Of a DNA stretch of 64,000 bases, positions 31,791 to 38,186 are shown piece by piece. The first letter of the stretch is position 1. Each line of letters begins with the position of its first letter. Source of the DNA: Candidatus Gastranaerophilales bacterium (GTDB lineage: Bacteria > Cyanobacteriota > Vampirovibrionia > Gastranaerophilales > Gastranaerophilaceae); contig CALVBT010000004.1 in the NCBI GenBank assembly GCA_944325885.1, forward strand, positions 62,001 through 126,000, written 5' to 3'. The position numbers were made by a program, and so were the translations under genes. The notes beneath the pieces were generated by a model. That model saw only the letters and a program-made list of their open reading frames with translations. It was not told where the DNA came from and did not search any database.

Positions 31791-34445
31791 ATGGAAAATA
31801 CAAAGACGATTAATTTTAGTGATTTGCCGACAACTTATGACGCAAAATCCACAGAAGAAAAGATTTACAAATTCTGGGAAGAAAACGAATGCTTTAAAGC
31901 AGATGCAAAATCTCCCAAAAAACCTTTTTCAATCGTCATCCCGCCGCCGAACGTTACCGGTGTACTGCACATGGGCCACGCCATTGACGAAACCCTGCAG
32001 GATATTCTTGTCAGATACCACAGAATGTCAGGATACGAAACTCTCTGGGTTCCGGGTACTGACCATGCCGGCATAGCAACACAAAACGTTGTGGAAAAAC
32101 AGCTGCGAGCCGAAGGCACAAACCGCCACGAACTCGGCAGAGAAAAATTTTTAGAACGCACATGGGAATGGGCAAATGAACACAAAAGCGCAATCTTAGA
32201 CCAGTGCAAAAGACTCGGTGCCTCTTTTGACAGAACAAGAGAAAGATTTACACTGGACAAAGGCTGCTCAGATGCAGTAAAAGAAGTTTTTGTAAGATTG
32301 TACGAAAAAGGGCTTATCTACAAAGGCTCATATATCGTAAACTGGTGTCCACGCTGCCAGTCTGCAATTTCTGATGTAGAAACGGAATACGAAACAGAAA
32401 GCAGCCACCTGTGGGAAATAAGCTATTCTCTAAAAGACGAACCGGGCGCAATCGTTGTAGCTACAACAAGACCTGAAACAATGTTCGGTGATGCAGCGGT
32501 GGCAGTAAATCCGACAGATTACAAATATAAAGATTTGATAGGAAAAACCGTTGTCGTACCTTTGACAGGAAGAGAAATTCCTATCATTGCAGACGAGTAT
32601 GTTGATAAAAAATTCGGCACCGGTGCGCTAAAAATTACACCGGCTCATGACCCTAACGATTATGAGATTGCAAAACGCCACAACTTAAAACCAATCTGGG
32701 TTATTGACGGCGAAGGCAAAATGAAAGCCTGTGCGGAAGTTCCTGAAGAACTACACGGACTCGACCGTGACGAAGCAAGAAAAAGAACAGTTGATATGCT
32801 TCGTTATCACAATGATTTAGTCAAGATTACAGACCTTGAACACAATGTCGGAAAATGCCAGAGATGCCACACAACTATCGAGCCGTTACTCTCAGAGCAA
32901 TGGTTTGTGAAAATGAAACCTCTTGCAGAAGCCGCAATAAAAGCAGTAAAAACAGGCGATATAAAATTTGTACCCGAAAAATGGGAAAAGAACTACCTCG
33001 GCTGGATGGAAAACATCCGTGACTGGTGTATTTCCCGTCAGTTGTGGTGGGGTCATCAGATACCGGCCTATTACCACAACCAAACAGGAGAAATGGTTGT
33101 TGCAAAAGAAAACCCTGATCCTGCAAATTATACACAGGAAACTGATGTACTCGACACCTGGTTTTCTTCAGGGTTGTGGCCGTTTTCCACAATGGGCTGG
33201 CCAAATACAGAGTCAGAAGATTTCAAAAAATTCTACCCGACATCCGTTCTTGTTACAGGATTTGATATTATCTTTTTCTGGGTAGCAAGAATGATAACAA
33301 TGGGGCTGGAATTTACCGGCAAGGCACCGTTTTCTACTGTGTACATACACGGCCTTATCCGTGACGAAAAAGGCCAAAAAATGTCAAAATCAAAAGGCAA
33401 CACTGTTGACCCTGTCGGTGTAATCGACAAATACGGCTGTGATGCATTGAGATTTACAATGACTTCCATGTGTACATACGGCGGTCAGGATATAAAAGTT
33501 AGCGAAGACAAATTTGAATACGGCAGAAACTTTGCCAACAAGATTTGGAACGCTTCCAGATTTGTGCTTATGAACCTTGAAGGCGTTGACAACAAAGCAA
33601 TTGATATGGACAACCTGACAATTGCAGACAGATGGATTTTGCACAGACTCAATGAAACAGCAAAACTTGTCAATGACAATATACAGACTTACAGAATCGG
33701 TGAAACAGCCCATGTTCTGTATGACTTTTTCTGGAATGAATACTGCGACTGGTATGTTGAAATTGCAAAAATTCAGCTTCAAGATTCCGAACAAAAAGCC
33801 AATACTCAGAGAGTTTTGAGATATGTATTGGATATGGCACTGCGTATGCTGCACCCGATTATGCCGCATATTACAGAAGCTATCTGGCAGTTGATTCCTC
33901 AGGAAAAAGAAGCTGTAGGCATTATAAAAGCAGCTTTCCCGACTTACAAAAAAGAGTTTGTTTTTGAAACAGAAAACAAAGAAATGGAACTCGTATTTGA
34001 AACTATCAAGTCGTTGAGAAATGTTCGCCAGAGCCTGAACATCCCGCTGAGTGCGCAGATGGATATTACAGTACTCGCCAGCAGCAATGAAAAACCGATT
34101 TTTGAGGCTGTTGTTCCTTATCTCAAACGTCTTGCAAGAATCGAAAGCGTAGAGTTCAAGGGCGAAGATACCCAGATGCCTAAAAAATCAGCCTCTGCTG
34201 TTGTCGGCAATTCAAAAATAATCATTCCTTTAGAAGGTTTGATTAATTTTGACGAAGAAATTGCCAGACAAAACAAAAAAATCGAAAAACTTACAAAAGA
34301 AAAAATGAGTCTTGACGGCAGACTAAAAAACAAAAACTTTGTTGAAAAAGCACCAAAAGAACTTATTGAAGAAACTCAAGCCCGTGCTGACGAACTCGAG
34401 GCTCAAATTAAAGCAATAAATGAGCTAATCGAAACTTTGAAGTAA
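31791..34445 (+). CDS. valS: Valyl-tRNA synthetase
   Basis: An 884-residue class Ia synthetase charging tRNA-Val. The HIGH region is PPNVTGVLHMGH (about residues 47-58), the editing domain carries TTRPETMFGDAAVAV, and KMSKSKGN is the second signature. The DWCISRQLWWGHQIP stretch and the C-terminal coiled coil (about residues 815-880, Lys/Glu heptads) are characteristic of ValRS. A GAGG Shine-Dalgarno lies 10 nt upstream. No T-box is visible. A strong terminator follows. Confidence 0.98.
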   Translation: MENTKTINFSDLPTTYDAKSTEEKIYKFWEENECFKADAKSPKKPFSIVIPPPNVTGVLHMGHAIDETLQDILVRYHRMSGYETLWVPGTDHAGIATQNVVEKQLRAEGTNRHELGREKFLERTWEWANEHKSAILDQCKRLGASFDRTRERFTLDKGCSDAVKEVFVRLYEKGLIYKGSYIVNWCPRCQSAISDVETEYETESSHLWEISYSLKDEPGAIVVATTRPETMFGDAAVAVNPTDYKYKDLIGKTVVVPLTGREIPIIADEYVDKKFGTGALKITPAHDPNDYEIAKRHNLKPIWVIDGEGKMKACAEVPEELHGLDRDEARKRTVDMLRYHNDLVKITDLEHNVGKCQRCHTTIEPLLSEQWFVKMKPLAEAAIKAVKTGDIKFVPEKWEKNYLGWMENIRDWCISRQLWWGHQIPAYYHNQTGEMVVAKENPDPANYTQETDVLDTWFSSGLWPFSTMGWPNTESEDFKKFYPTSVLVTGFDIIFFWVARMITMGLEFTGKAPFSTVYIHGLIRDEKGQKMSKSKGNTVDPVGVIDKYGCDALRFTMTSMCTYGGQDIKVSEDKFEYGRNFANKIWNASRFVLMNLEGVDNKAIDMDNLTIADRWILHRLNETAKLVNDNIQTYRIGETAHVLYDFFWNEYCDWYVEIAKIQLQDSEQKANTQRVLRYVLDMALRMLHPIMPHITEAIWQLIPQEKEAVGIIKAAFPTYKKEFVFETENKEMELVFETIKSLRNVRQSLNIPLSAQMDITVLASSNEKPIFEAVVPYLKRLARIESVEFKGEDTQMPKKSASAVVGNSKIIIPLEGLINFDEEIARQNKKIEKLTKEKMSLDGRLKNKNFVEKAPKELIEETQARADELEAQIKAINELIETLK

Positions 34446-34465
34446 AGTTGGTTATAATAATAGAT

Positions 34466-34500
34466 TTACAGGGCAGACTTAACTCTGCCCTGTAATTTTT
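34466..34500 (+). terminator. Terminator after valS
   Basis: Perfect 12-bp inverted repeat TTACAGGGCAGA / TCTGCCCTGTAA with a 6-nt loop and a following T run. Confidence 0.92.
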
Positions 34501-34685
34501 AATAGCAAAAATTTATCCAAATGGCTACAATTTTTATGTTATAATACAAGTATTATAATATCCCATTTTTCGCAAAATTATAAAATCATTTATGAATATA
34601 TTTTTTCAAAATAGTAAAAATAGTTGATTTATTATGCAAAAACAAACAGTAACATTAAACCAATAAAGTTATTATCGGATTATTA

Positions 34686-34715
34686 TTGACATAAATGTTT
34701 ATTTTAGAGTAAATG
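34686..34715 (+). promoter_or_regulatory. Promoter of the Panacea-domain gene pair
   Basis: A perfect TTGACA (34686-34691) with a -10-like GTAAAT/TAAATG 17-18 nt downstream, in a 250-bp very AT-rich stretch that otherwise contains no gene. Confidence 0.5.
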
Positions 34716-34758
34716 ATATATGTTCAATATTATATCCGCATAAAGACGGAGAATTTTT

Positions 34759-35376
34759 ATGAATCTAAATTTTAGGAATAAAAAAAGGCTTCAAGTTATT
34801 AATTATATTTTTAATAAGCTTAATGAACAAGAATTGTCTAAAGAATTTGTTATAAAACTTGTATATTTAGCAGATAAATTATTTTTGTTAAAATATGGAT
34901 GCACTATTACCTCTGATAAATTAATGGCGTTTAAACGTGGACCTGCTTGTTCACAGACACTTGCTATATTAGATATGGATAAAGACCACGTTGAAGATAA
35001 AGAAGACAAAGTTATTGATACTTTTAAAAATGTTTATGATGTAACAAAAAGACCACATACCAAAAAAGTGCATACTCTTTTTGCAAAAAATTTGCCTGAT
35101 AATTTTTCATCTTTATCAAAAAATGAAATGGATATAATTGATATTATAATAGAAAGATTTGGAAAACTTTCATACAATGAATTAAGCAATTATACTCATT
35201 CCTTTAACGAATGGAAAAAGCATGAAGATGCATTATTAGACGATACAATTGCAGAAGAGATTGATTGCAAAGATGTATTTGAAGATAAAACTTTCTTAAA
35301 TGATGAATTATTGTCTAAATATATAGATGAAGAAACTATTCAAAATTCTGCAGCTATTTATTACGGAGATTTTTAA
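34759..35376 (+). CDS. Panacea-domain (DUF4065) protein, antitoxin-like
   Basis: A 205-residue protein whose middle matches the Panacea/DUF4065 (SocA-like) pattern: FVIKLVYLADKLFLLKYG, ITSDKLMAFKRGPACSQ, then a helical part ending with GKLSYNELSNYTHS and EWKKHED. Panacea proteins are known as a promiscuous antitoxin domain that pairs with many unrelated toxins. A GGAG Shine-Dalgarno precedes the ATG. The next gene starts 2 nt after its stop. Codon use is more AT-rich than in the neighbours, suggesting transfer. The antitoxin role is inferred from domain and gene arrangement. Confidence 0.82.
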   Translation: MNLNFRNKKRLQVINYIFNKLNEQELSKEFVIKLVYLADKLFLLKYGCTITSDKLMAFKRGPACSQTLAILDMDKDHVEDKEDKVIDTFKNVYDVTKRPHTKKVHTLFAKNLPDNFSSLSKNEMDIIDIIIERFGKLSYNELSNYTHSFNEWKKHEDALLDDTIAEEIDCKDVFEDKTFLNDELLSKYIDEETIQNSAAIYYGDF

Positions 35377-35378
35377 CG

Positions 35379-35879
35379 GTGGGAATAAATCTTTTTTCTC
35401 AAAAAGAAAAACCACTAACTAAAGTTGTAAATACTTTTGCAACTATTCCATTATTAGAATTTAAAGTTGTAAGATTTAAGGATAAAACTCATAAAACTCC
35501 AAAGTTCAGATATTGGATAGCATTTAGGATTGAAGATTCAACATATTGTGTATTGAACACAATAACAAGCCAAATTGATTATATTGCAAGGTTTTATAGA
35601 AATGATGATAACGGAGCAAACAGCATAGTCGTTATTAAAGATAACGAATATAATCCCCCATTAGATAAATTATCTTACATAGATTGTAATATAAAATCAT
35701 CCAATTATAAAACATATAAAGAACTGGCTGACAATATTATTGATTGGGAAAAAGGACTGGAGTCTATTCCTGTTAATATTCCTGAAAATATAGTAAATAG
35801 AATAGTTGATGCAATATTAAACAGCAATCATACTTCAGAAGATTTAAAAAAATTACTGCGTAAAAAATATCAAAAATAA
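35379..35879 (+). CDS. Unknown partner of the Panacea protein, candidate toxin
   Basis: A 166-residue protein starting with GTG 2 nt after the Panacea stop, so translation is probably coupled. The N-terminal two-thirds seem beta-rich: LLEFKVVRF, FRYWIAFRI, TYCVLNTITSQ, SIVVIKDNEYN, LSYIDCNI. The order of strands and the ITS... and KLSYIDC stretches recall the SH3-like barrel of PemK/MazF endoribonuclease toxins, but I cannot recognise a family with certainty. The C-terminus is helical (NIVNRIVDAILNS, EDLKKLLRKK). If the pair is a toxin-antitoxin module, this is the toxin (inference). Confidence 0.65.
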   Translation: MGINLFSQKEKPLTKVVNTFATIPLLEFKVVRFKDKTHKTPKFRYWIAFRIEDSTYCVLNTITSQIDYIARFYRNDDNGANSIVVIKDNEYNPPLDKLSYIDCNIKSSNYKTYKELADNIIDWEKGLESIPVNIPENIVNRIVDAILNSNHTSEDLKKLLRKKYQK

Positions 35880-35949
35880 AAAACTTATAATAGATACGCA
35901 AAAAAATTTATTTTCATTTTTTATCCTTTACACATAGAGAGGAATAAAA

Positions 35950-36360
35950 ATGAAAATACAACAAACATATACAAAAAATTATCAGCCGGCCTTTGGGGCA
36001 AAATTTTTGCACAGCGAGTCATTAAAACAGATAGCTGATTATGCTGTTGAGCATAACAAGTTTGATAAACTCAATCAAGCACGAAAAAATATAGATTCAG
36101 CGTGTCTATTGACAAGGCTGCGTGTGGATACCGGAATAAATGAAAAAGGGTTTTCTTTTATTACTTTTACAAGGTTTGAGCCTAAAAAAAATATTAATAT
36201 TGCTATGTCGATGGACGATTATCAACAAACAAAGATAACTCTTTTTGAGAGTAAAAGAAAAGAAAATCTCTTTAAATTTGCCCTGGAAAAAATAATAAAA
36301 CTCTCTAATAATGCCCCTAAAAATAATATGTATAAAGATGTAGTTATCAATAAAAAATAG
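35950..36360 (+). CDS. Small protein with MKIQ...YxPxFG N-terminal signature
   Basis: A 136-residue protein of unknown function. An AGAGAGGAA ribosome site precedes the ATG. The first 20 residues (MKIQQTYTKNYQPAFGAKF) closely resemble the start of the next gene product (MKIQSYKTNYKPISI), which suggests a shared, lineage-specific leader or targeting element. The body contains helices and two likely strands (GFSFITFTRFEP, NINIAMSMDD). It ends 12 nt before the radical SAM gene and is probably cotranscribed with it; it might be a partner or substrate. Confidence 0.7.
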   Translation: MKIQQTYTKNYQPAFGAKFLHSESLKQIADYAVEHNKFDKLNQARKNIDSACLLTRLRVDTGINEKGFSFITFTRFEPKKNINIAMSMDDYQQTKITLFESKRKENLFKFALEKIIKLSNNAPKNNMYKDVVINKK

Positions 36361-36372
36361 ACATTTATAACA

Positions 36373-37860
36373 ATGAAAATCCAATCATATAAGACAAATT
36401 ACAAACCGATTTCAATAAATAATTCACAGCATAAAAACTTGCAAACAAAAATTTTACCTCAGAATAAACTGAAGCAAGCAGATGTACACAATATAAACTT
36501 TAAGGGCAATCCCCTTGTTGAAATTAAAAATGCTGCAAAATTTCTTTATGCCAAAAAGAAGGTTTCTGATTTAAAAAAATATATAGATGCAACAGACGGA
36601 AAAGATTCTTTTGTTCTAAGACAATTTGCCATGGAGCCATTTGAAGGGCTGCAGTACGGGATAAAAGCCTTTAAAGGTATGACAATGAAAGAGATTCAAT
36701 ACCTGTGCGAAAATCTTCACGTTATAGCTGTAAACAGAGGCTGCAAAAACATGTGCGGCTACTGTTATGCTGATGCAAAACCATCTAAAAAAGCAATGTC
36801 GTGGGAGGATTTTACAACAATAACAAAAGGCCTGAAAACTTTAAGAAAACGTTTTTTGGGGCTTGATATTTTCGGGGAAAATATTCCGATTTCAAAAGAG
36901 GATATTTTGTATAGAACAACAGAGCTTTTTTATGATTCCGATTGCATGAATATTGCAGTAAAAGATAAAAAAGGCAAATTATACGATTTTACCGAGCTTG
37001 CGACGGAACTCTACAACTCCACCGGCAGACGCACTGCTTTTGATACATCAGGGTGGTATAAAAACAATCCGATTATGCAAAAAAGAGCGGAAAAATACAC
37101 GGATTATTTTTCCAAACCCGAAAACATGAAAAAACTGAACGCCTTTAACGTTTCCTTTAATGTTTTTAATGCATCTTATATTGCCTCTGTAAAAGCTCTC
37201 AAAAAAGGTGACACTCAAAAGGCTCAACGGCTCAAAGAACGCTATATCAATAATATGGCCAATACTCTTTTTACTTTTATACCGCTTGCAGACCAGCCAA
37301 AATTCCATATTTTAATAAGGAGCTTTGATTCATCAAAAGCAAAAAATGCAAAAGACTTTAATGACAAAGCAATGACCTCTCTTATAAAAGAAGTTTATAA
37401 AAAAGTTGAGCGTATGTGCAAAGATGATATGGCAGGAGAACAAAAATATATAAAAAATCCTAACATGCTGGAATCAAAACTTGTTAATCTCTATTTTAAA
37501 CTTGGCATGATTGATACAAGTTTGAACTCTTCGGGACGAATGAAAAAATTTATGCAGGAATTTAATATAAAAGCACCGCTTTTGGAATATGACGAGTCAA
37601 TGAAAAAAGTTCTTGCAGACTTAAAAGAAAAAGGAAGACACCACAACTATATCATGCACAGGCTCATTGATACAGACGGCAAGGTATATCATATGAATTA
37701 TGCAAGGTTTATCCCAACAGAAATTCAATTAAACCTGGCGCAAAAAAATATACCTGCACCAAAGCTGGCAAATACTGTAGAGGATTTTGTTTTGACAAAA
37801 GAAATCCTGAACAGGCCGGAAATCCAAATCATCAAAAGAGCAAAAATAAAAGATAAATAG
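36373..37860 (+). CDS. Uncharacterised radical SAM protein
   Basis: A 495-residue protein with the radical SAM cluster motif CKNMCGYC (Cys124, Cys128, Cys131) after the strand HVIAVNRG. The N-terminal 50 residues are Lys/Asn/Gln-rich and contain the NINFKGNP element. After the cluster comes a large Lys-rich region with HVSF-like strands (NAFNVSFNVFNASY, LFTFIPL, FHILIRSF) expected of a partial TIM barrel. No extra 4-Cys SPASM cluster is evident. It is not a recognisable member of a known function class. No Shine-Dalgarno precedes the ATG; translation may be coupled to the upstream gene. Confidence 0.75.
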   Translation: MKIQSYKTNYKPISINNSQHKNLQTKILPQNKLKQADVHNINFKGNPLVEIKNAAKFLYAKKKVSDLKKYIDATDGKDSFVLRQFAMEPFEGLQYGIKAFKGMTMKEIQYLCENLHVIAVNRGCKNMCGYCYADAKPSKKAMSWEDFTTITKGLKTLRKRFLGLDIFGENIPISKEDILYRTTELFYDSDCMNIAVKDKKGKLYDFTELATELYNSTGRRTAFDTSGWYKNNPIMQKRAEKYTDYFSKPENMKKLNAFNVSFNVFNASYIASVKALKKGDTQKAQRLKERYINNMANTLFTFIPLADQPKFHILIRSFDSSKAKNAKDFNDKAMTSLIKEVYKKVERMCKDDMAGEQKYIKNPNMLESKLVNLYFKLGMIDTSLNSSGRMKKFMQEFNIKAPLLEYDESMKKVLADLKEKGRHHNYIMHRLIDTDGKVYHMNYARFIPTEIQLNLAQKNIPAPKLANTVEDFVLTKEILNRPEIQIIKRAKIKDK

Positions 37861-37898: not shown

Positions 37899-37918
37899 AA
37901 TTTTTGTCACTTCAAAAG

Positions 37919-38058
37919 TTCGGCGGCAACGACTCTGCCGAGCAAAACAATCCGGTGAATTGTTTTGCGAGAGGTTGAACCGCAAATTTATAAAAATAAA
38001 TTTGTCGTGAAAATCCCCAATCACATCAATATTACTTTATAATAATTCGGCGGCAACG
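37919..38058. repeat. Duplicated tRNA 3' end flanking a hairpin-rich 114-bp segment
   Basis: TTCGGCGGCAACG occurs at 37919-37931 and again at 38046-38058, the latter inside the tRNA-Glu 3' end. The DNA between contains two perfect inverted repeats: GCAAAACAAT/ATTGTTTTGC (10 bp) and CAAATTTAT/ATAAATTTG (9 bp). Confidence 0.75.
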
Positions 38059-38119
38059 GGATTTGAACCCGTGTCAACAGAATGAGAATCTGCTATCCTG
38101 ACCCCTAGACGATGCCGCT
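38048..38119 (-). tRNA. tRNA-Glu (anticodon CTC)
   Basis: On the minus strand the 72-nt sequence folds as a tRNA: acceptor, TCGTCTAG D-arm start typical of tRNA-Glu, anticodon stem GCAGA/TCTGT with loop TTCTCAT (anticodon CTC), T-arm ACGGG-TTCAAAT-CCCGT and discriminator G. The first acceptor pair would be A-C, a mismatch unusual for tRNA-Glu. CCA is not encoded. It reads GAG codons. Confidence 0.93.
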
Positions 38120-38186
38120 AAAAGGGAAAATTCTTTTTTACAATCCAAGTATATCACTAAAAGAAAAAAGCAAACTTATTTTTTTA

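Follow-up and report, generated by a model that had tools for sequence, protein, structure and literature searches.

A panA-panT gene pair of Candidatus Gastranaerophilales bacterium as a probable Panacea toxin-antitoxin module with a divergent MazF/PemK-like partner

Here, we present an analysis of a two-gene unit, panA-panT, in a stretch of 64,000 nucleotides from Candidatus Gastranaerophilales bacterium (contig CALVBT010000004.1; referred to below as the window). We conclude that the pair is probably a PanAT-type type II toxin-antitoxin module, in which PanA would be the antitoxin and PanT a divergent endoribonuclease of the MazF/PemK fold. This reading builds on the operon structure, the conservation of the pair, the homology of the partner family, the predicted fold, the alignment of individual residues and the absence of the pair from the relatives searched; on these grounds, we propose that PanT is toxic, cleaves RNA and is neutralised by PanA in a complex, and that the module has a trigger and a biological role. 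The analysis thereby provides a likely function for a protein that the Pfam, NCBIfam, PHROG and PADLOC models do not recognise in this genome.

Organization and genomic setting of the pair

The two genes are separated by 2 nt, and the next gene starts 70 nt behind panT (Table 1). The original prediction of a DUF4065/Panacea gene followed at this distance by a GTG-started gene for 166 residues agrees with the open reading frames and with the match of PanA to the PF13274 SocA_Panacea model (E=1.3e-20; 74.9 bits at a cut-off of 25.7). This match covers PanA residues 32-153 and leaves a tail of about 50 aa behind it. The survey in which PanAT pairs were defined asked for two genes within 100 nt, present in at least two species and not part of a long operon (PMC8832971). 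panA and panT lie less than 100 nt apart, are conserved as a pair in at least two species and are not part of a long operon, as judged within the window from the hairpin that precedes the pair and the distance to the next gene.

Table 1. Positions of the features discussed, numbered from the first nucleotide of the window
Feature	Position	Strand	Basis or remark
panA, 205-aa Panacea-domain antitoxin (putative)	34759..35376	+	ATG start; ORF list, PF13274 match
panT, 166-aa putative toxin, predicted MazF/PemK-fold barrel and C-terminal two-helix extension	35379..35879	+	GTG start
GGAG, possible ribosome-binding site of panA	34748..34751	+	sequence; inferred
GGAG, possible ribosome-binding site of panT, within the panA 3' end	35365..35368	+	sequence; inferred
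GPV signature position of Panacea, reads Gly-Pro-Ala (PanA residues 61-63)	34939..34947	+	sequence
Codon of PanT Arg44, aligned with the Arg of the MazF RP motif (Arg25 in B. cereus/B. subtilis MazF)	35508..35510	+	hhalign
Codon of PanT Thr63 in the TSQ motif, aligned with the Thr of the MazF TS motif (Thr48)	35565..35567	+	hhalign
Codons of S-Y-I-D-C-N, PanT residues 99-104, strongly conserved family motif	35673..35690	+	alignment
Terminator-like hairpin behind valS, between valS and the pair	34466..34495	+	12 pairs; read on the minus strand as well
tRNA-Glu	38047-38120	minus	about 2.2 kb from the pair

The pair was also predicted to be AT-rich and to have its own promoter. The first holds: the GC content is 25.4% for panA and 26.3% for panT (about 26% for the pair) versus 37.2% for the window, and among 629 window stretches of the length of the pair, taken every 100 nt and including those that overlap it, four match or undercut its GC content. 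The second is not borne out. Based on a scan of positions 34300-36500, promoter-like sites occur at chance level (17 versus 15.7 +/- 4.4 expected), and no plus-strand site is listed between the valS hairpin and panA (34496-34758). Terminator-like sites in the same region number 4 versus 0.4 expected. It is solely because the strong terminator-like hairpin follows valS that a transcription start for the pair, separate from that of valS, is plausible.

The signature GPV is typical of the Panacea domain without being strictly required, and PanA, which the Pfam model recognises, reads GPA and so lacks this mark; GPV is present in 68 of 79 distinct Panacea relatives, as counted with a first-match pattern that may contain a few misreadings. 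In one PanA for which GPV mutants are described, G62A or V64S alone was tolerated and the double change was not (PMC8832971). The genome contains one Panacea match and no match to the PemK_toxin model PF02452.

The pair lies behind valS. To place it in the genus, we compared the 0.9-1.5 kb behind valS in 21 of 22 relatives, leaving out one (L156) that lacks the valS end, and found panA-panT in none of the 21. The stretch (window positions 34446-35950; relatives L135-L155) is a variable site in the genus. A Fic-family gene is located there in 3 of the 21 relatives (L137, L141 and L142), recognised in L137 by Fic_N (E=8.4e-18 for the first 170 residues) and in the other two by eye; L143 carries a Gp49-like protein (PF05973) together with an addiction-module antidote (PF21716); and several relatives carry YjbR-type genes (PF04237 for L153, the others by eye). 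In L137, homology to the window resumes at position 35875, the end of panT (85.6% identity over 167 columns), and the Fic gene therefore occupies the place that the pair takes here. L153 and L144 have a homologue of the gene at 35950-36360 behind valS with only a YjbR-type gene between. The simplest reading is that the pair was gained by horizontal transfer at this variable site, and the low GC content of the pair agrees with it. The site behind valS thus appears to take up toxin-antitoxin-like genes in the genus.

The window gene at 35950-36360 encodes a 136-aa protein without a Pfam match, and that at 36373-37860 a protein of 495 aa that includes a CxxxCxxC stretch and is only weakly similar to Radical_SAM (E=0.037); by eye, NY(Q/K)P can be seen close to the N-terminus of both proteins. 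The original prediction had placed the pair next to a tRNA with a duplicated 3' end. The duplication exists: an 18-nt near-copy (89%) of the tRNA-Glu 3' end is found at 37914-37931 relative to 38041-38058, 127 nt apart. The adjacency does not, given the distance listed in Table 1. Since the two copies are found on the same side of the pair, we rejected the duplication as the mark of an integrated element carrying panA-panT; it may be the trace of an old integration that had nothing to do with the pair.

Conservation of the pair and homology of PanT

On its own, PanT leads to no relatives. With PanT as the query, its own genome was the sole match among 288 family genomes (1/288), and searches of viral contigs, phages, plasmids and genome contigs confirmed none. 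Four relatives were also used as queries and had no match at E 0.01 or 0.001, L055 and L108 in phages and plasmids, L094 in plasmids and L110 in phages, so that these searches yielded no annotated record for any family member. In viral contigs, 69 pattern matches to the partner alignment A6 and 128 to the PanA alignment A3, which has two rows, led to no confirmed relative. Relatives of PanT were reached instead through their Panacea neighbours, partners being chosen by their position downstream. In the first set of same-phylum genomes, the best PanA match (L027, E=1.2e-13) is followed directly by the best PanT match of the set, which is still insignificant (E=0.64). In a viral contig (L055), PanA is 33% identical to the window PanA (147 columns, E=6e-19), and a 147-aa partner aligns with the window PanT (E=2e-5), both E-values being those of single comparisons. 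The alignment of the partners runs through ITSQ and S[FY]IDCN; the strings KLSYIDC and ITSQ, which had been pointed out in PanT beforehand, are indeed present and belong to the family motifs.

When genome contigs were scanned with a PanA alignment of three rows, 49 named PanA-relative loci were obtained. Each locus was tested with a leave-one-out profile, built without that locus, without the window and without any row that shares 80% or more identity with the row under test. In 43 of these 49 loci, the gene directly downstream on the same strand belongs to the partner family. This count includes L066 (E=0.0006), L064, L071 and L080 on partial frames, as well as L067 and L057, which are not independent as near-identical rows stayed in the training set. 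Five of seven loci in viral contigs gave the same result, and at the other two (L058 and L059) no family member was found downstream. Of the six misses among the 49, L060 and L098 have no family member in the 2,976 and 2,892 nt, respectively, downstream of PanA, and in L063 and L079 the contig ends 80 nt behind PanA and with 410 nt left, respectively. The other two were also counted as misses: L061 has a family member upstream of PanA on the opposite strand (1199-1648), and in L082 (2944-3708) the match to the partner profile falls within the PanA frame, as would be seen if the two genes were fused or frameshifted. Judged from the record titles, the loci represent about a dozen phyla and include Bacteroidales and other Bacteroidetes, Fibrobacteres, Endomicrobium, Verrucomicrobiales, Alphaproteobacteria, Candidatus Jorgensenbacteria and other Patescibacteria-type groups, Dehalococcoidia, Zixibacteria, Ignavibacteria, Desulfobacterales, Bacilli, Sphaerochaeta, Sericytochromatia and Corynebacterium.

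The product of panT is homologous to this PanA-linked partner family. We built a profile from 34 partners, leaving out the window protein, the truncated, fragmentary or doubtful frames of L064, L071, L080, L082 and L084, and identical duplicates. This profile ranks PanT first among 455 window ORFs (E=2.3e-22), with the next best ORF at E=0.03. Similarly, a 41-row profile finds PanT at E=6.7e-23 and the next window ORF at 0.13. The family counts below refer to alignment A7, which has 42 rows including the window and leaves out L057, L067 and fragments. These observations support the original prediction of a two-gene Panacea toxin-antitoxin module: the genes co-occur as a unit, where separate occurrence had been named as evidence against it, and the partner did not turn out to be a conserved non-toxic protein with an assigned function.

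In the phylum, 21 of 386 genomes together hold 23 matches to the partner profile (window included), and 17 of these matches, the window among them, adjoin a Panacea match (compared by eye). Three of the remaining six look like canonical MazF proteins (L124-L126), two more carry stops, and the last (L132) is an additional short copy. Panacea is more common than the partner family (79 versus 21 of the 386 genomes), and most Panacea genes of the phylum must therefore have other neighbours. Such an excess is expected of the partner-swapping antitoxin described in PMC8832971 and does not help to establish the pairing.

Predicted fold and catalytic positions of PanT

In searches of single-protein models, the panT product stays below every cut-off in Pfam and NCBIfam; the MazF/PemK models in Pfam, NCBIfam, PHROGs and PADLOC do not match it, PF02452 up to E=1 and the PHROG "MazF-like growth inhibitor" included. 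PADLOC has no match for PanA either. Four matches of PanT were set aside: PF13315 DUF4085 (E=0.024) and glutamate--tRNA ligase (E=0.023), both far below the cut-off, and the weak phrog_35216 (E=0.15), its sole PHROG match, and PDB entry 8vb2 (E=1.3). At the level of the family, PF02452 matches 7 of the 42 members at E up to 1 (best 8.3e-5) and the PHROG "MazF-like growth inhibitor" matches 2 of 42 (best 1.9e-5).

We modeled PanT with AlphaFold2 from 42 aligned sequences (pLDDT 87.0, pTM 0.81); a prediction from the single sequence was poor (pLDDT 45.2) and was discarded. Comparing the model with PDB chains by VIA-align, we obtained a block of 46 chains with Z from 8.5 to 6.1, after which Z drops to 4.0. 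The titles in this block are MazF, mRNA interferase, endoribonuclease, YdcE, MoxT, Kid and CcdB, and four entries are titled only as a toxin or toxin-antitoxin complex (7ewj, 7bye, 7ewi and 5cca). The best match is the mRNA interferase of B. cereus (7bxy, rmsd 3.5, 107 aligned residues). Only seven chains reach Z 8, and according to the tool a lower Z may mean a common arrangement; we suggest that the weight of the result lies in the uniform block of MazF-group entries and the drop in Z behind it. Foldseek returned no PDB match at E<=0.001, and its first rows are MazF-mt3 and the MazF of Deinococcus radiodurans (E=8.6e-3 to 2.8e-2, probability 0.98-0.99). In the viral library of Foldseek, an uncharacterised Hyperionvirus protein ranks first (E=2.8e-3, probability 0.85) and a PemK-like phage protein second (E=3.3e-3, probability 1.00).

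Profile comparisons point in the same direction. Aligned by hhalign with seven MazF-type sequences, the partner family scores a probability of 90.7 (E=1.2e-6). The family profile finds six of the seven as single sequences (E 2.4e-9 to 1.9e-5; L164 at 0.12), E-values that refer to the seven-sequence set. Among these single-sequence alignments, L160 agrees at the Arg and TS positions, L124 and L125 agree at the Arg position with the TS position shifted, and L161, L162 and L165 align with the family profile in its C-terminal half only. In a profile search of the PDB, MazF-type chains appear at E 0.014-0.1 within profile positions 13-120. The designed helical proteins that come first in this search (5cwb, 8cwy, 8cws and 6w2q, E 2.7e-5 to 0.012) cover the C-terminal helices only, and we treated them as composition matches. 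Altogether, the model and these comparisons argue that PanT has the MazF/PemK/CcdB fold with its barrel. The hint in the original prediction at a PemK/MazF barrel is thereby strengthened by the predicted fold, the profile-profile comparison and the weak PemK_toxin matches within the family.

In the MazF proteins of B. cereus and B. subtilis, Arg25 as general acid/base and Thr48 as charge stabiliser are described as the key residues, and in two MazF proteins of Mycobacterium tuberculosis Lys replaces the Arg and Ser the Thr (PMC7354611). In the hhalign alignment, R44 of PanT falls on the arginine of the MazF RP motif and T63-S64 on the TS motif. Thus, the window PanT carries the MazF pair, and most of its relatives carry His: column 44 of the family has His in 39 and Arg in 3 of 42 members, and column 63 has Thr in 29, Ser in 11 and Val in 2 (Thr or Ser in 40/42). 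Because of the His at the position of the MazF Arg, the chemistry of the partner family may differ from that of MazF. Of the other family positions, Cys103 is kept in 40 of 42 members and Ser149 in 41 of 42.

Proposed function and comparison with known systems

We propose that free PanT would cut RNA and stop translation, with Arg44 acting as the general acid/base and Thr63 as the transition-state stabiliser, as in MazF. PanA would bind PanT in a complex and hold it inactive, and the loss or triggering of PanA would release the toxin. The literature on PanAT provides the frame for this model. Kurata 2022 identified DUF4065/Panacea as an antitoxin domain, reported 88 clusters of potential toxins and validated nine new PanAT pairs (PMC8832971). 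Two of the PanT proteins described there, from Pseudomonas moraviensis and Bifidobacterium ruminantium, have no CDD match and were found to be MazF/PemK-like by HHpred; both specifically inhibit protein synthesis and are neutralised by Panacea (PMC8832971). Ernits 2023 places MazF/PemK among the most common folds of the toxin network and reports that a stand-alone Panacea domain can neutralise directly (PMC10440598). Beyond PMC8832971 and PMC10440598, none of the papers listed in our literature searches deals with the present partner family, and we found no experiment on it.

A role chiefly in abortive infection against phages, with Panacea sensing infection and the MazF-like toxin as the effector, would add to the proposed mechanism rather than compete with it. 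We regard this role as possible and less probable than the mechanism itself. Ernits 2023 favours a role of Panacea in sensing cues of unknown nature (PMC10440598), the pair occupies a variable site behind valS at which some relatives carry other toxin-antitoxin-like genes, and members of the partner family occur in viral contigs. Against such a role, PADLOC matches neither PanA nor PanT, and in the family it gives only weak matches to single members.

We also consider, somewhat more tentatively, that the partners form a separate and widespread MazF-fold subfamily that has co-evolved with Panacea, characterised by His in place of the catalytic Arg in most members, by SxIDCN and by a C-terminal helical pair that might serve as the docking element for Panacea. 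If so, the RNA target or the chemistry could differ from those of MazF, and the window PanT would be among the few members (3/42) that keep the MazF Arg. The family-wide change from Arg to His at the catalytic position is directly testable.

It is improbable, in our view, that PanT has the MazF/CcdB fold and is no ribonuclease, acting by binding or, like CcdB, by poisoning another target such as gyrase, and being neutralised by PanA. CcdB shares the fold and is among the structural matches (4elz, Z 6.5), and most family members lack the catalytic Arg. However, the nearest structural and profile matches of PanT are MazF proteins, the column of the catalytic Thr is almost always Thr or Ser, the window PanT itself has the Arg, and the two MazF-like PanT proteins described by Kurata 2022 act on protein synthesis specifically (PMC8832971). 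Slightly less probable still is a pair that is decayed or non-toxic, either an old functionless module or a two-gene unit with a role outside toxin-antitoxin systems, as the presence of PanT in one of 288 family genomes, the GPA in PanA and the eight tested PanT proteins that were non-toxic in E. coli (Kurata 2022, PMC8832971) could suggest. Against decay or lack of toxicity, neither frame is disrupted, the pair retains its spacing, its start signals and the conserved motifs, and V64S alone did not abolish neutralisation by the tested PanA (PMC8832971).

The reading of PanT as a MazF-fold partner of Panacea bears on two families in public collections. PHROG 19071, a phage family without known function, matches 6 of the 42 members (best E=5.9e-22) and two 130-aa Panacea partners in same-phylum genomes (L018 and L021), and therefore it is probably the same MazF-fold group. 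The NCBIfam family NF045891, "Mbov_0400 family ICE element protein", matches 7 of 42 members (best E=1.5e-5); these sequence matches suggest that the Mbov_0400 family of the mycoplasma ICE may belong to the same Panacea-linked group, and among the proteins of M. bovis, PMC8249566 lists Mbov_0376 as SocA/DUF4065. Thus, PHROG 19071 and, by the weaker matches, NF045891 become linked to a MazF-fold family that accompanies Panacea.

Compared with known systems, the pair shares a Panacea-domain antitoxin with the type VI SocAB system of Caulobacter, in which SocA promotes the proteolysis of SocB (PMC8832971); unlike in SocAB, the partner in the window is MazF-like. By its predicted fold, PanT belongs to the group of the gyrase poison CcdB; however, it matches MazF better and keeps the Arg and Thr positions of the MazF type. 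With canonical MazF, PemK and Kid (PF02452), the window PanT shares the predicted barrel, the order of the motifs and the aligned Arg and Thr. It differs from them in that PF02452 misses it, in that the neutraliser would be Panacea and not a MazE-type protein, in its C-terminal two-helix extension and in its membership of a family with TSQ, SxIDCN, Ser149 and, in most members, His for Arg. The pair is most like the PanAT pairs of P. moraviensis and B. ruminantium as described in PMC8832971, in which a Panacea gene likewise adjoins a gene for a toxin without a recognised domain that is MazF/PemK-like by remote comparison, and its antitoxin-first order is the more common one in that survey. The toxins of these two pairs are WP_083201923.1 (P. 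moraviensis) and WP_026646888.1 (B. ruminantium) in Table 1 of PMC8832971. The window PanT has a C-terminal two-helix extension and SYIDCN, which may set it apart from them. The original prediction that PanT could be a new type of toxin partner is not supported, because MazF/PemK-like toxins neutralised by Panacea have already been shown experimentally for these two species (PMC8832971). Rather, we regard panA-panT as a further PanAT module with a MazF-like toxin and not as a new class of system.
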